Below the pieces are notes generated by a model. It saw only the letters and a program-made list of their open reading frames with translations, made no database searches and was not told where the DNA came from. This document shows positions 15,001 to 49,733 of a DNA stretch of 62,030 nucleotides, in pieces. Both the position numbers and the translations under genes were made by a program. Source of the stretch: an uncultured Planctomycetaceae bacterium. Lineage in GTDB: Bacteria; Planctomycetota; Planctomycetia; Planctomycetales; Planctomycetaceae. Where the stretch lies: the NCBI GenBank assembly GCA_903858815.1, contig CAIOKE010000110.1, positions 1 to 62,030 of the forward strand, in the 5' to 3' direction. How positions within the stretch are numbered: position 1 is the stretch's first letter; the number at the start of each line of letters is the position of its first letter.

Positions 15001-15246
15001 GGGAGGAAAACACAACCGCTCAGGCGTGAACGACAACACCCGTCAGCTTACGCTCATGGCTCGCCAGTGGGGAGGCTTGATTGCGTTGCACGATACGGGC
15101 TGAAGCGTGTGCTACGACCACCGAGCACCAGCCTCGTGACGATTTCGAGGCTCGTCTTTGCTGAGTGGTTATCAGCTTACGGAATGGCTGAGCGACGGGC
15201 GAGGGTGTGTCGCTTTGTGTGGGGCAAAGGCGGCCGGGCAGGAATG
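15001..15246 (+). repeat. Repeat mosaic downstream of mtnA (block shared with 41.7-41.85 kb)
   Basis: About 115 bases ending at 15117 align by eye with 41681-41793, sharing CACAACCGCTCAG and the degenerate hairpin module CGGGCTGAAGC...GCTACGA (15096-15117). Next comes a second module, ACCGAGC-ACCA-GCCTCGT (15120-15137), shared with 24713-24730. The stretch ends in CTTTGTGTGGGG...GGCCGGGCAGGAATG (15212-15246), which matches 41816-41848. No gene is supported in 14894-15555. Confidence 0.75.
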
Positions 15247-15365
15247 ACGCGAGGGACAAAAGTCGGCTGAGGCCGTCAAATTGACTTCAGCTCATTGAAA
15301 AACATCGTGTTTTTGCGGTACGGGGCCGAGCAGGAATGCTCCGGCTACATTTTTGTCCTCGGCGT
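15247..15365 (+). mobile_element. MITE-like element, copy 1
   Basis: 119 bases with ends ACGCGAGGGACAAAA and TTTTGTCCTCGGCGT (12 of 15 positions pair as inverted repeats). It is about 90% identical to the element at 48612-48731. Flanking direct repeats CAGGAATG lie at 15239-15246 and 15366-15373. A related uninterrupted sequence with a single CAGGAATG is at 41841-41848, which looks like the empty site. Inside are a small hairpin AAAAACA-TCG-TGTTTTT (15298-15314) and a REP-like module GCCGAGCAGGAATGCTCCGG followed by CTAC (15325-15348). It has no coding capacity. Confidence 0.7.
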
Positions 15366-15418
15366 CAGGAATGCTCGGTCTACGGTTGTGGGCGAACAAC
15401 GAAAGCTGAACAGTGGCA

Positions 15419-41503: not shown

Positions 41504-42119
41504 TGGTCGGCGGTCGGTGGTCAGTGAGGGGCCACGACATTGGGCGAGTGGGGTTTGGGGCGGCGGTGGTGTGTGTGGCGTGGCTGCTGGCTGGTGCGGT
41601 GTGGTGGGTGAGTGTGGTGGCTGAGTGTGGTGGGTGGTGGATGGTTGATGAAAAACGCTCTGGATCAGGCTTCCGTGCCAGGAACACACAACCGCTCAGA
41701 CGCAAACGACCACACTCGTCAGCTGATGGTAACGGCTCGCCTTTGCGTGGGGGTGAACGTGTTGTGCGACACGGGCTGAAGCCGATGCTACGAGCGTTGA
41801 GCGCCGCTTCGCGGCTTTGTGTGGGGAAAAGGTGGCCGGGCAGGAATGCCCGGGCTACGGTTGTGGGTGAACAACGACAAATGAAGACTGACCATTGACT
41901 TCGGCTCGGCGGGAGCCTCGCCCTCCGAGGCGGGACTTTGCGAGCACTGATCGCTGAGAACGAGGTCCTTCGTTGGTGAAGAATCACCAACTCAGACGGC
42001 ACAGCAACACCGCGAACAGCATTCTGCGTGGAGCCCATTTTCATTGCCCGGTTTTCGCGGAGGTGAGGGGCTGCGCGCACGTGTTTCCCGTGAGGGGCCT
42101 CTCGGGGTGAGCTGTTTTT
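41504..42119 (+). repeat. G/T-rich stretch and repeat mosaic with an apparent empty MITE site
   Basis: 41504-41650 is G/T-rich low-complexity DNA. 41681-41793 aligns with 15001-15117, including CACAACCGCTCAG and CACGGGCTGAAGCC-GATGCTACGA (41770-41793). At 41834-41860 stands GGCCGGGCAGGAATGCCCGG followed by GCTACGG, a perfect CCGGGCA-GGAA-TGCCCGG hairpin. It corresponds to the sequence interrupted by the MITE-like element at 15247-15365. The hairpin GGCTC-GGCGG-GAGCC ends the shared part (to 41917). No gene is supported. Confidence 0.7.
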
Positions 42120-44523: not shown

Positions 44524-45873
44524 TCAGCACAACTGGAATTCCGGCAACGTACACAACGCATGCAGACCTTCCGCGAGGGCGGCTTCCGAACGCGGTTTCA
44601 TCAGTGACAGAATACTGTCACGAGCCCTCTGCGGGATCGGAGCAGCAAACAATAACAGCTGCAGCTCTGCCAGCATCTCGGCCGGTTCTTTCAGATCATG
44701 AGCCGACAGATAATCGGGCAGCGACTGGCGACCGAAGCGAGTATTCGGATCAGTGATCAACTGCCGCATCAGATTGCTGCGACCCAGCAGAGTCGAAGAA
44801 TTGATCCATGTTCGCCCGCCATCCCACCCCTTGACGCTGGGGGGATACAGCAGGCCCTGTCCCAGTTGCTGCAGGGACTTTGCCAATCCAACGGTATTTG
44901 TGGTCCCTTCAAGACAACGCAGCAGTCCCAGAGCCAGCTCGACCGGAGATTTAATCCGGCGACCCACAGAGCGACGTGAAAAGAACAGGCGACTGGTCAG
45001 GATTGTTCGAAGCAGTGGCCGAATCTGCAGGCCACTGTCGCGAAACTGCCGGGCCAGTGGTGCTGTCAGGGCGACTACGTCAACAGGTTCGTCCATTACG
45101 AAAAAACGCAGCATTTTACTGACAATGAACTGCGCTGTCTGTGGCTGACGGAGGACCACATCCACGGCCTGCTCACCGCTGAATTCACCGCTGGTACCCA
45201 GAAATGCGCGGCTGCCTGTATCGTGCTGAAAACGATTGAAACGATATTCACCACGACGCACTTCCCAGCCCGTGAAACAGCGAGCCAGTTCCCGGATATC
45301 CTGCTCCGTATACTGACCTTCGCCCAGGCAGAACAGCTCCATCAGCTCACGCGCATAATTCTCATTGGGGTGCGCCTTACGATTGGATGCAGAATCCAGG
45401 TACAGCAGCATTGCCGGGTCTTTTGAGATCTGTTGAACCAGGTCGCCAAAGCCGGCAAATGCCAGTCGTCGCAGCAGCTGATTCTGCGTCAGCATCAACT
45501 GCGGTTCCGTGACCTTGTCAGCCCCGGTGGCGAAATGACCATGCCAGAACAGCACGGTTTTTTCCAGCAGTTGCCGGGGCGTACCAAGAATTCGATAGAC
45601 CCACCACGCCGACAATGGTTCCACATTGCCACCCGATATGGCAGCGGTCGCAAGCGTCTGCATCTGGCTGTGAAATTCCGCTGGCTCCGGCACGTCCAGC
45701 AGTTCATCAACGACCTGCTGGGGACTTTGTCTGACGGCTGCCTCCAGCTGCTGTCGGTTCGCTCCGAAACCCGCCCGACGGAACAGATGGGCTGCCGCTG
45801 ACAGATCCCACGGGCCGTCGACATCCGGTTCAAACGGTTGCCACAACTCTTCGGCAGTCAGCTCAGTTGCCAC
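44524..45873 (-). CDS. DUF1800 protein
   Basis: 449 residues from a GTG with a strong GGGAGG eight bases upstream. The DUF1800 landmarks are clear: 'AAHLFRRAGFGANRQQLEAAV' near the N-terminus, 'LFWHGHFATGADKV' (about 108-121), 'NENYARELMELFCLGEGQYTEQDI', and 'KGWDGGRTWINSSTLLGRSNL' in the C-terminal half. No signal peptide is visible. Its start overlaps the end of the upstream secreted-protein gene by 11 bases, so translation is probably coupled. It forms the usual DUF1800-DUF1501 pair. Confidence 0.93.
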   Translation of the reverse strand: MATELTAEELWQPFEPDVDGPWDLSAAAHLFRRAGFGANRQQLEAAVRQSPQQVVDELLDVPEPAEFHSQMQTLATAAISGGNVEPLSAWWVYRILGTPRQLLEKTVLFWHGHFATGADKVTEPQLMLTQNQLLRRLAFAGFGDLVQQISKDPAMLLYLDSASNRKAHPNENYARELMELFCLGEGQYTEQDIRELARCFTGWEVRRGEYRFNRFQHDTGSRAFLGTSGEFSGEQAVDVVLRQPQTAQFIVSKMLRFFVMDEPVDVVALTAPLARQFRDSGLQIRPLLRTILTSRLFFSRRSVGRRIKSPVELALGLLRCLEGTTNTVGLAKSLQQLGQGLLYPPSVKGWDGGRTWINSSTLLGRSNLMRQLITDPNTRFGRQSLPDYLSAHDLKEPAEMLAELQLLLFAAPIPQRARDSILSLMKPRSEAALAEGLHALCTLPEFQLC

Positions 45874-47680
45874 GATCAGATTCCTCCCGGATGCTCTGAT
45901 CTGCTGCAGATGTGGCTGGCGTCAACTGCAGATCAAGCTCCAGCTGCAGACGGTTGGCAGCTGCCTCAGGTCGCAACTGCAGCGTCAGACCATGAACCAG
46001 ACTGATGAGTTGCTGCAGTACACCAACTTCCGTTTCGGCTTCCTCACGAGTCTGCCCCTTCGTCAGCATATTCTGGGTGATCATGGCCTGCTGGTTATCG
46101 GCGATCAGCTGACCGGCAACCGCTGCCTGCAATTCCATCCGCATGTTGGCTGATGCGGCCGGCTGACGCGGAACCTGCAGAATCTCAGTCGCCAGTCGTT
46201 CTGTTGATGACAGCACAAAAACATCACCCTGAAAGGCGACAGTCGGGGAAAAATTGTAGATCAGCGGAACCGGCGGAGCTTCCCCGGTGGTGGGACGACG
46301 CGGTGGCAGGTAACGGGCAATCACCAGCTCCTGATCGGCCGTTTTCTGCATGTCCATTTCCAGCTGCGATCGACCCTCCTGAATTCCAGTGATATTGAAA
46401 AACCCAATCGCACTCTGGAAAGCTCGCCGCAGTTCTGGACGCATCGTGGCAGCATCCTTCATTGTCAGCACCAGAGCGAAAGCCGGCAGCTGAATCGCTG
46501 GAACAGGCTGCTCGGCAGAAAAACGCTGGCGAGCCGCCAGCAACAGCATTTCCGGTCCGAATGCTCCCAGAACTTCGTCACCAAAATCACGTCCCCCGAA
46601 GACGGTTCCCAGATTGCTTTCGGCTTCCGCCATGCGGTCGTTGATATCGGCATTGAAAAGGTCACCGGCTCGCTGCCACATCTCGGACACGTTGCGGTAC
46701 ATGCCAACAGTTCCCAGAAGTTCGGTGACCTGTGGCACGGTCGGAACTGTCCCGGAGGCCGCCGGTCCAAAGAACCATTGACGGCTTTCGGGAATCCAGT
46801 CGGTCTGAAAAGGTGCCGCAACGGAGAGCTGCAGGCTGGTGTCTGCAACCTGCAGCTGTGCCTGCAGCCAGTCTGTGCTGTTCAACACGTTCTGCAATCC
46901 ACCGAACAACAGCTCGACCGCTGGGTTGTCAGCCTGCCCCGTGAAGACTTTCTGATTCTTTACCGCGCTGCGGACCGTCTGCATACCGATCCAGAATGAT
47001 GCTGACTCCTGTGATGGCCGAGCCGTACGTGCCTGCTGCCATGCAGGCACTGCCGATAAGGACTGTTCGTCGGCCGCTTTCAGATCCAGCAGCCGATCCA
47101 GCAGTCGTTTGCCGGCTTCTGCTTTATTCACAACCAGCAGCCATTCACCAACGACAGCGGCACCGCCCTGCGGCAGCCGATACACCGGAATATCACGATA
47201 GGTGTCCAGTCGACCGTTGCCCGGTGGAGTCAGTCGAGTCAGTTCCAGAAGTTTCAGTCGCACATCCTGCATCAACTGCTCGTCGCGACCGTGAATTAAC
47301 AGAGCCACTGAATTGTCACTGCTGTCCACTGCCAGCCACAGACCCTGAGCTGTAATCGCCTGCAACGCTTCCAGCCATGGCATGCCCATCTGCAGCTGAA
47401 AGAAATTGCGGCCGGTCATAACAGGTTGCAGATCCGCACTGGCAAGGGCCTTACGAACGCCATCGATTGCCTGCACCCGCTGCACCAGAGGATGCTGCAC
47501 CAGCGATTGCAGGAGTGCCGGAGGGTCTGCAATTTCAAGGCAGGCCGCTGTACTGGCCGGAAAGACATCAGGCCCCTTCAGCGATTGAGCACTGGCGGAC
47601 TGAGTCCCTGCGAAGGGAAGCAGGCACAGGCTGGCGGACAGCAGCCAGAATGCCATGATTGGCCGATCGACACACGTCAT
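45863..47680 (-). CDS. Secreted protein of unknown function upstream of DUF1800/DUF1501
   Basis: 605 residues from the ATG at 47680, chosen because it gives a signal peptide (FWLLSASLCLLPFAGTQSASAQ, cleavage near residue 32). The frame stays open to 47941 but that part looks non-coding. The mature protein begins 'LKGPDVFPASTAACLEIADPPALLQSL', a pattern I associate with planctomycete secreted proteins of DUF3352-like character. It consists of alternating helices and strands with no catalytic motif. It overlaps the DUF1800 gene by 11 bases and probably belongs to the same operon. Confidence 0.68.
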   Translation of the reverse strand: MTCVDRPIMAFWLLSASLCLLPFAGTQSASAQSLKGPDVFPASTAACLEIADPPALLQSLVQHPLVQRVQAIDGVRKALASADLQPVMTGRNFFQLQMGMPWLEALQAITAQGLWLAVDSSDNSVALLIHGRDEQLMQDVRLKLLELTRLTPPGNGRLDTYRDIPVYRLPQGGAAVVGEWLLVVNKAEAGKRLLDRLLDLKAADEQSLSAVPAWQQARTARPSQESASFWIGMQTVRSAVKNQKVFTGQADNPAVELLFGGLQNVLNSTDWLQAQLQVADTSLQLSVAAPFQTDWIPESRQWFFGPAASGTVPTVPQVTELLGTVGMYRNVSEMWQRAGDLFNADINDRMAEAESNLGTVFGGRDFGDEVLGAFGPEMLLLAARQRFSAEQPVPAIQLPAFALVLTMKDAATMRPELRRAFQSAIGFFNITGIQEGRSQLEMDMQKTADQELVIARYLPPRRPTTGEAPPVPLIYNFSPTVAFQGDVFVLSSTERLATEILQVPRQPAASANMRMELQAAVAGQLIADNQQAMITQNMLTKGQTREEAETEVGVLQQLISLVHGLTLQLRPEAAANRLQLELDLQLTPATSAADQSIREESDRGN

Positions 47681-48058
47681 AGGGGATCGCCTGAAAACAG
47701 ACTGCTGAACAGCCTCCAGCAGCCGCGACAGAGCCGAGGCAAACAACACCAGATGGCTGGCTGCGAGAGAAACCTGGTACGGAATTTGGGGCAGTTTCCC
47801 CGGACAAACAGCAGGCTTACGGGTTCCGTGTCCTGAATTCTGACGCGCCGGCCAACTTCGGGCAAACTCAGACCGCTGGAATTGCAGCGATTTGTACGGA
47901 TCGGAAGTCAATGAAACGGGGCGGGCTCCGGGCAGACGCACCGTACCGGAATCCCCTCGTGAGCGGTCACTGCCTGCGTCTGGCCGCTGTCCCTGACAAA
48001 GGGCCCTGCGGAAAATTCAAGACGCGGAAACGCTCGGAAAAACGCCGGGGCTCACACG

Positions 48059-48120: not shown

Positions 48121-48611
48121 GAGAAGGACTGGTGAGGTTTCCGCCGAATCGCAATGCATGACCGTTCGGTTCAGCAGGAGCTTCAACCACCCGGGATGCG
48201 CAATACCGCAACCCTCTGGAGCGCTCGTCATTACCCATAAAAAAAGATGTTTATGATGCCGCTCCGATGTTGCGGAGGAGTAAATCAATCGTTTTCGGCT
48301 GGGTTTTTCCCTGGGCGTTGCCGAGGGCTACGTTGTGTCTGGCCGTTGGCCAGGTGTGGAACTCACGCGTGGCCGGACGGGTTGCGCAGGTCATGACAAG
48401 TCGGGAGGGCGAAGCTACCACTGAAACGATCAGGGAGAATTCTGCAAACTTCAGTGGCAATGCAAATGGCAGGTGCGTACGTGATTTCAAGTTGATCCGA
48501 AAACAGCTCGGGCAAACGCCACGGCAGCTGAACTTTCCATAAAGTCCTGCGTTCCAGGACGTCCGAATCACAGACTGTCGAACTGACTCAGGCCTGCAGG
48601 ACCAGTGACTG

Positions 48612-48731
48612 ACGCCAGGGACAAAAGTCGTCTGAGGCCGTCAAATTGACTCCAGCTCATTAAAAAAACATCGTGTTTTTGCAGTACGGGGCCGAGCAGG
48701 AAGGCGCGGGCTACATTTTTGTCCCTGGCGT
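48612..48731 (+). mobile_element. MITE-like element, copy 2
   Basis: 120 bases with perfect 15-bp inverted ends ACGCCAGGGACAAAA (48612-48626) and TTTTGTCCCTGGCGT (48717-48731). A perfect 9-bp direct repeat CAGTGACTG flanks it (48603-48611 and 48732-48740). The interior matches copy 1 at 15247-15365 at about 90%, including the AAAAACA-TCG-TGTTTTT hairpin (48664-48680) and the GCCGAGCAGGAA...GGGCTAC module (48691-48714). It has no coding capacity. It sits 31 bases beyond the end of the gene at 48762-49733, on its 3' side. Confidence 0.78.
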
Positions 48732-48761
48732 CAGTGACTGTCCCAACTACGGATGCTCAGA

Positions 48762-49733
48762 TCAGGATTCAGAGTCTGGAGTCGCAGGGCCTGACAGCGG
48801 GGCAGCCTCATCCTGCAGTGACGGTTTGCGTGCAAAGCGTTTTTGTCTTGCTGCGATACGACATCTGACAATCTGCCAGATGTCGTCGTACCAGACATCC
48901 AGTGTCTGCGTTCGAACAAGCTGCTGTGCTTCCGCAGCGGTCAGGCGCCGTGCCACCAGTTCAGCTCCCACGACGATAATACCAATCACGATCGTCAACA
49001 GCAGTGCGGCAGACTGCATCTCGGGCTCAGCTTCAATCGCCTCGCGAAACTGGCTGGTCAGGACTCGTCCGCGTGGCAGCAATGCGACGGTGAGGCAGCC
49101 GACGGTCGTGACAACCAGCAGCGTCAGCACTCCCCGGATCCCGGCTGTCTGCCACTGCACCAGTTGTTCGGAACGCGATGACCAGAATGCGGGACTACAC
49201 AGATCACTGAGCTGCACCGGCCGATTCTCTGTGTCGTCAGCACCCTGCTCCGTCGCATCATCCTGCAGATTCAGCGTGACATTGACCGAAGTCTGGCGTT
49301 CCTGCGCACGGAGTCCCGCAGTCAGTGATCGGGAAGCTGCTTCCTGTAAGATGGGCCGTTGTCGCCAGAGAAACATCAGAAATGTCAGAGCGGCGAGGCA
49401 GAAAACCAGCTCATTTTCCGCTTCAAGGCGACCGCGTACCTGGGGTTCCGTCAGCAGCAGATGCAGCAGCAGGCACAGCAGTACCAGCAATCCACCGGCA
49501 TGGCGCAGGGTCAGTAGAACCAATGCGGCAATCAGCAGGCGAATGGATGCTGCCAGTTGTGGCAGCAGGCAGAAAATCAGGATCGCAGTGCTGCTCATCG
49601 TCAGGAGCAACACGAGCAACCCGCGGAGCAGTGAGACTGTGGGTGACAGACGCAACGGTTTCAGGAGTGTGGGTTCGTGCTGTTGTTGACTGTCCGCGCT
49701 GTGTGTGTCGGCAGGCGTTGTTGCAGTGCTCAT
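48762..49733 (-). CDS. Multi-pass membrane protein of unknown function (MoxR cluster 2)
   Basis: 323 residues. About five or six hydrophobic segments are visible: roughly 33-52, 58-80, 82-95, 105-120, then after a charged loop about 205-225 and 245-265. A basic C-terminal tail follows. No domain is recognised. Its start overlaps the DUF58 gene by four bases (ATGA), so it is translationally coupled to the MoxR-DUF58 pair. Comparable clusters in other planctomycetes include a transglutaminase-like protein, which is missing here. Its likely role is membrane anchoring for the complex (inference). Confidence 0.7.
   Translation of the reverse strand: MSTATTPADTHSADSQQQHEPTLLKPLRLSPTVSLLRGLLVLLLTMSSTAILIFCLLPQLAASIRLLIAALVLLTLRHAGGLLVLLCLLLHLLLTEPQVRGRLEAENELVFCLAALTFLMFLWRQRPILQEAASRSLTAGLRAQERQTSVNVTLNLQDDATEQGADDTENRPVQLSDLCSPAFWSSRSEQLVQWQTAGIRGVLTLLVVTTVGCLTVALLPRGRVLTSQFREAIEAEPEMQSAALLLTIVIGIIVVGAELVARRLTAAEAQQLVRTQTLDVWYDDIWQIVRCRIAARQKRFARKPSLQDEAAPLSGPATPDSES

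Follow-up and report, generated by a model that had tools for sequence, protein, structure and literature searches.

What kind of element has the same 15 bp at both ends, carries no gene of its own and is bracketed by a short direct repeat, and if it moves, what moves it and where does it land? The question arises at positions 48612..48731 of the window, by which we mean the whole stretch of DNA analyzed, 62,030 nucleotides from an uncultured Planctomycetaceae bacterium. A first-pass annotation, made from the letters alone, had read this locus as a non-coding MITE that transposed as a unit. We think it very probable that it is a non-autonomous MITE, moved in trans by an IS1182-related DDE transposase that leaves an 8-bp (rarely 9-bp) duplication, prefers the loops of REP hairpins and inserts in a way that renews the REPs. 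In kind, this is an ordinary MITE; it is the relation between its cargo and its target that is unusual.

The element in the window

The 120-bp copy is delimited by the sequence itself, its BLAST matches and our table of elements (copies, duplications and the internal hairpin are given here without a strand). Its ends are perfect, as the earlier reading had them: the left terminal inverted repeat, ACGCCAGGGACAAAA (48612..48626, plus strand; seen in the sequence, a repeat search and an end-motif scan), has its reverse complement, TTTTGTCCCTGGCGT, at 48717..48731 (minus strand). The reported 9-bp duplication needs qualifying, in that CAGTGACTG does flank this copy on both sides (48603..48611 and 48732..48740), but the usual length in the family is 8 bp, and 8-bp duplications occupy the same place in other copies. 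Because CAGTGACTG is almost palindromic, ends and duplication merge into one 24-bp inverted repeat, which is how the repeat search scored them (96% complementary). End and target duplication are thus inseparable from the window copy alone, and it is the other copies that separate them.

Inside the element lie a hairpin, AAAAACA-TCG-TGTTTTT (48664..48680; from sequence and folding), and, on the minus strand, a slightly degenerate GTAG-tagged REP, GTAGCCCGCGCCTTCCTGCTCGGCC (48690..48714), which differs at two positions from the genome's common form, GTAGCCCGAGCATTCCTGCTCGGCC. A single strand of the element, folded as DNA, gives z of about -5.1 for either strand, and an Rfam search of it returned no match at E up to 1.

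Long minus-strand ORFs lie on either side of the copy, at 45863-47941 and at 48762-49733, with 21 bp from the right duplication to the end of the latter. No ORF of its own is found among those listed at 80 aa or more, and the single listed one to overlap it, a mechanical frame of 338 aa (48673-49689, plus strand), starts inside the element and runs antisense to the more plausible ORF 48762-49733; as far as a gene of its own is concerned, the element is indeed non-coding. The adjoining gene has counterparts, at 70% identity, in two other genomes, G010 (of the same genus) and G007. A scan of about 3.8 kb around each, with up to two mismatches allowed, found no MITE end, the gap itself being unalignable, and these seemingly empty loci hint weakly that insertion may have followed divergence.

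A second copy occupies 15247..15365; it is 119 bp long and, where the two match, 91% identical to the first. Its 8-bp duplications, CAGGAATG, lie at 15239..15246, within a REP loop, and at 15366..15373. The same CAGGAATG stands at 41841..41848, where the REP whose loop contains it, GCCGGGCAGGAATGCCCGGGC, has no insertion; this is a free site of the preferred type. Positions 48304-48360 hold another dispersed repeat, parts of which match elsewhere in the same genome and also in G010 and G008.

Copies, ends and duplications across the genome

A BLAST search of the window's own draft genome (G000; 6.39 Mb in 373 contigs) with a 138-bp query gave at least 45 matches, at least 40 of them long (103-138 bp, 84-100% identity) and five short; the count is a lower bound, with 40 of 166 candidates scored. 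The end motif TGACGCNNNGGACAAAA occurs exactly at 101 sites (48 forward, 53 reverse) against none for the reversed control, and at 175 against 5 when one mismatch is allowed. With 101 motifs against zero, together with 40 long matches, this is a family of elements and not chance. Among 58 other genomes tried, copies were found in G010 only. A pattern scan of genome_contigs, which may leave out records of the window's own genome, matched 24 stretches, 15 in uncultured Planctomycetaceae bacterium LaPlata-b_bin-0686 and nine scattered over unrelated taxa; the nine are not taken as members, since about seven chance matches were estimated.

For closer comparison, 63 elements were tabulated, namely the fetched own-genome loci at which both ends are recognizable (up to three mismatches each and four together, 95-150 bp, overlaps removed). 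The table leaves out one-ended copies, those cut by contig ends and those in which an end contains an indel; four of the 63 were judged to derive solely from a REP search, and chance pairings are possible for L075 (148 bp) and a few elements with three mismatches. Sizes run from 113 to 148 bp and form two classes, of about 118-120 and 128-132 bp, plus a few others. The 41 short-class copies have a median identity of 87%, so most are not recent. L051:1396-1639 (contig C107) holds a head-to-tail pair of related elements, 120 and 116 bp long, with the 8-bp CAGACAAG between them and a divergent REP.

Among copies, the ACGC...GCGT ends are near-constant, and the adjacent 8 bp (9 bp at the window copy) differ from copy to copy yet match across each element, from which it follows that the element transposed as a unit. 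Perfect repeats next to the ends are 8 bp long in 23 elements and 9 bp long in one, the window copy; none is 6, 7 or 10 bp long. All eight flanking positions agree in 23 of 63 elements, against 9.7% when flanks are swapped between elements, and at least seven agree in 37, against 19.1%; these control values are raised by the REP target that many copies have in common. In the 25 elements in which neither flank is a REP loop, perfect agreement is found in seven (0.3% expected) and agreement at seven or more positions in 11 (1.7% expected), and matching rises above background over these eight positions only (15-21 of 25 inside, 3-11 of 25 outside). The first-pass annotation had held that copies with the same outer sequence and without duplications would mark a fixed repeat; on these figures, its reading as a mobile unit is supported.

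Flanks that match at fewer than seven of the eight positions belong to 26 of the 63 elements, the window copy among them; compared over 9 bp, those of L087 and L100 match at eight and seven of nine. The remaining poor matches would be expected from age or from recombination among the copies. Both flanks are REP loops in 18 elements, two of which have them inverted and not direct. REP half-sites inverted to each other, with no direct duplication, were seen at L093 and L143 and at L113 in another genome, G068. For such inverted half-REP flanks, in the own genome and in G068, recombination is the only explanation that we can offer, and we do so tentatively.

REP cargo and choice of target

The internal REP hairpin, the preference for REP loops, and the nested and one-ended copies described below are points that the first-pass annotation had missed. 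The REP GTAGCCCGAGCATTCCTGCTCGGCC, with up to three mismatches, is present in 61 of the 63 elements, and in those longer-class copies that were read the other half holds a second GTAG-tagged hairpin, distinct from the first and inverted relative to it. The genome has 210 REP sites with up to two mismatches, against 0 for a control. These sequences have the marks of the GTAG superfamily: an unpaired GTAG foot, a short stem-loop (-7.8 kcal/mol when folded as DNA, with the 4-nt loop TTCC) and a high copy number.

The duplication is preserved in 38 elements, that is, the 37 with at least seven of eight flanking positions matching plus the window copy. Of these insertions, 26 are in a REP loop and 12 elsewhere (24 of 35 in a REP loop when the four elements derived from the REP search are removed). 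Those in REP loops are at CATTCCTG, and the duplicated CATTCCTG is centered on the loop TTCC. At the other sites, C comes first and G last in most, often as CA..TG. Extended hairpins were looked for at these non-REP targets, and pairing beyond the CA/TG rim was at chance level, so we make no claim that any hairpin suffices. As judged from the insertion sites, the preference would be roughly for CANNNNTG, and above all for the loop CATTCCTG of GTAG-tagged REP hairpins.

Is it the hairpin that is chosen, or merely the letters in its loop? Within the MITE reading, the target may be recognized as sequence (CANNNNTG, at its best CATTCCTG), with REPs serving because they hold it and survive between genes. 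We give this version slightly less than an even chance. The non-REP sites speak for it, since they share the CA/TG rim alone, as do the sites of a more distant relative in G021 (below). REPs look intergenic, and survival as well as targeting may account for their excess. Against it, REP loops are a small part of the CANNNNTG sites (of 348 such sites in the window, five read CATTCCTG/CAGGAATG, and three of these five were created by the second MITE copy or lie within it) and yet received 26 of the 38 insertions; for IS1272, of the IS1182 family, a choice of stem-loops has been reported (PMC5678879).

A transposon with the same ends

The first-pass annotation had proposed a search for a full-length transposon that has the element's ends and carries a transposase; one is present in the genome at L082:263-2109. 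It is 1,847 bp long, ends in ACGCCGAGGACAAAAG and ATGCGAGGGACAAAAG, which match the MITE, and is flanked on both sides by CAGGAATG, an 8-bp duplication within a REP. Between the ends runs a 549-aa ORF on the minus strand, without stops, whose product matches PF01609 (DDE_Tnp_1), PF13751 (DDE_Tnp_1_6) and PF05598 (DUF772), all over their cut-offs. A DDE domain together with DUF772 is typical of the IS1182 family. The NCBIfam IS1182 model, NF033551, scores 180.6 bits over residues 52-532 (next model, 87.4 bits), below its cut-off of 270, and we therefore use the label "IS1182-like." Across eight proteins, 67 columns are invariant, D164, D359 and E492 included, and we assign these three as candidate catalytic residues.

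From these features, L082:263-2109 is likely the parent of the MITE, and its transposase would mobilize the MITE in trans. The two agree over the outermost 15-18 bp only, and the transposase is present as a single copy in the genome. A plasmid search with it gave 114 records, none above 60% identity. With a short length, no transposase gene, terminal inverted repeats, a duplication, many dispersed copies and a transposon sharing its ends, the element has the features by which MITEs are recognized.

Could a different transposase that shares these ends move the MITE, the 1,847-bp transposon being a mere fellow user? The transposon is a single copy beside dozens of MITEs, and the MITEs of G010 are accompanied by no match to the transposase. 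However, the transposon has the MITE's ends, its duplication length and its REP-loop target, a relative has the same target habit, and about 1.5 to 3.5 kb around 100 of the 101 end motifs, less near several motifs where a contig ends, showed no further long element with such ends. We regard this alternative as unlikely and retain the IS1182-like transposase as the probable mover.

Apart from the own genome, 24 of the 169 genomes searched in the family have relatives of the transposase, many of them partial; with the own genome included, the figures are 25 and 170. Although G010 has MITE copies, no transposase match was found there; the enzyme may have been lost, or another may be acting. The nearest relative, 48% identical, is in G068, which belongs to another genus, and its ends read ACGCGCCCGACA. 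All five exact end motifs in G068 abut CATTCCTG (three, where the GTAG half is visible) or CAGGAATG (two, the other half), within halves of a REP whose stem differs from that of our REP. Several of the five lie at contig ends, and they represent at least two copies, probably three. An automatic end finder gave no direct duplications for this element, which has inverted half-REP flanks instead. Five further motifs with one mismatch (of 10 in total) were taken as unrelated, as they lie outside REPs and the reversed control also gave two. G068 has, in addition, a separate repeat with TGACGCGGCCGACA after a conserved left flank, seen three times (L218, L219 and L220).

More distant relatives in G021 (transposase 32% identical) form three full copies with ends ACGGGGCGGCAAAAAG. 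Their duplications, CAGCTTTG and CAAATCTAG exact and CATAAATTG with one mismatch, are 8-9 bp long and of the CA...G kind, and no hairpin surrounds the insertion sites. A search for ends of this type in G021, G068 and G010 found eight sites, all in G021, which make up the three full copies and two single ends, and no MITE. REP targeting is therefore not universal among the relatives: palindromic targets, a trait of some IS1182-family members, are seen as REP loops in the own genome and G068 and not in G021. On this comparison, the REP-loop habit appears to be older than the window's own genome.

Nested and one-ended copies

Contexts were read for the first 30 exact REP matches in contig-number order. 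Two-ended MITEs account for 17, one-ended MITEs for six, and one is cut by a contig end; the other six have no MITE end. In all six one-ended MITEs the left end is missing and the copy starts at GTAG. Nested copies, in which two MITE ends of the same orientation lie 34-35 bp apart, occur at L041, L044 and L046, and a REP pair without MITE ends was seen once, at L161. At L150, L154 and L167, REPs lie inside a longer conserved context, roughly GTTCGCCGACAACC-GTAG REP-CCTTTTGCCCACACAAAGC, which looks like another repeat family with the REP in common.

REPINs, whose movement is generally ascribed to RAYT transposases, are not known to have outer ends or duplications such as those described here. 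It is important to ask whether a REP-associated tyrosine (Y1, HUH) transposase could have moved the inner REP pairs as a REPIN, the outer ends being passengers or an ancient target. The GTAG feet and inverted REP pairs of the ~130-bp class do resemble REPINs, a pair without MITE ends exists, and Y1 transposases are present in 12 of 18 genomes of the genus (0 to 19 matches per genome). The own genome (a draft, 99.4% complete) and G010 are among those without: PF01797, the RAYT-type Y1 transposase, had no match in either, whereas the same search was positive in five of 14 control genomes, E. coli among them. The Y1 transposase expected in the genome of a REPIN/RAYT system is thus not found here, and the MITE copies have 8-bp duplications, which Y1 transposition is, to our knowledge, not known to leave. 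We consider this origin quite improbable. Still less can be said for a fixed structured repeat (a terminator, for instance, or an element of RNA processing) that recombination between REPs has spread, a reading which we judge very improbable indeed, as the strong fold, the site just past the end of ORF 48762-49733 and the mosaic flanks of part of the copies are outweighed by the variable matching duplications at non-REP sites, by a transposon with the same ends and by the counterpart genes in G010 and G007, around which no MITE end (up to two mismatches, about 3.8 kb) was found.

The reading that we prefer, transposition in trans by the IS1182-like enzyme, suggests a cycle. The inverted ends, ACGCNNNGGACAAAA, would be recognized by the DDE transposase of the one full-length transposon elsewhere in the genome, which would move the MITE and leave an 8-bp, rarely 9-bp, duplication. 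Each insertion into a REP would consume one loop, but the MITE's own REP would replace it. On same-direction entry, the outer half-REP, GTAGCCCGAGCATTCCTG, and the inner half-REP would form direct repeats about 34 bp apart, and recombination or slippage between them could remove one end of the MITE and leave a complete REP again. The nested and the one-ended copies are consistent with rounds of insertion and subsequent deletion; the restoring deletion, and the multiplication of REPs by such a cycle, are our proposal.

Comparison with known systems

One close system, by description, is QMITE2 of Coxiella burnetii, a MITE whose direct repeats are 7-11 nt long and which has a GTAG REP inside it, the short versions without ends being essentially REPs and the REP a landing site for a transposon (PMC5896051; reviewed in PMC10969869). 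There, however, the REP is targeted by IS1111, whereas here it is targeted by the MITE's own presumed transposase. IS1272 resembles our transposon in its transposase, its size (~1.9 kb), its ~16-bp ends and its preference for palindromic targets, but its reported mode of insertion replaces the stem-loop without a target duplication, whereas here the 8 bp at the loop are duplicated (PMC5678879); a figure legend of the same paper gives loop duplication as a possible further pathway in its model. In PMC3281130, one IS1182 element is entered with the value 4, presumably the length of its duplication.

Insertion sequences that target REPs include IS1397, ISKpn1, ISPsy8, ISRm22, IS621 and ISPpu9 (PMC1525189). 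They too insert at a fixed point of the REP, ISPsy8 and ISRm22 with a short direct repeat and ISRm22 at the axis of the palindrome, but the families given there are IS3, IS110, IS4, IS256 and IS5, not IS1182, and the sections consulted note no REP-carrying MITE. The REP dimers of A. variabilis and H. neapolitanus are likewise pairs enclosed by inverted sequences and repeated as one unit, although the text available to us gives no transposase, duplication or target preference (PMC3733652). REPINs are themselves inverted REP pairs (PMC3116915, as far as consulted), which here are the inner part of the ~130-bp class. The parts seen of PMC6006769 and PMC12306157 contain nothing on this element. 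In the openly licensed literature, so far as it was accessible, we found neither a MITE that carries a REP preferred by its own transposase nor, in planctomycetes, a MITE belonging to a relative of IS1182.

What the finding means

REPs are usually explained by RAYT transposases. Here is a genome with about 200 REPs and no detectable RAYT, in which 23 of 30 examined REPs lie in a DDE-type MITE or its remains, and this points to a second route for the spread of REPs. An IS1182-related lineage may have captured its own target, so that its jumps renew their landing sites and spread REPs, whose multiplication here would thus not be the work of a RAYT; we hold this tentatively, at slightly under an even call. 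If true, this would be a natural mobile element that travels with its own target, and would predict nesting, little damage to genes and regrowth of the number of targets.
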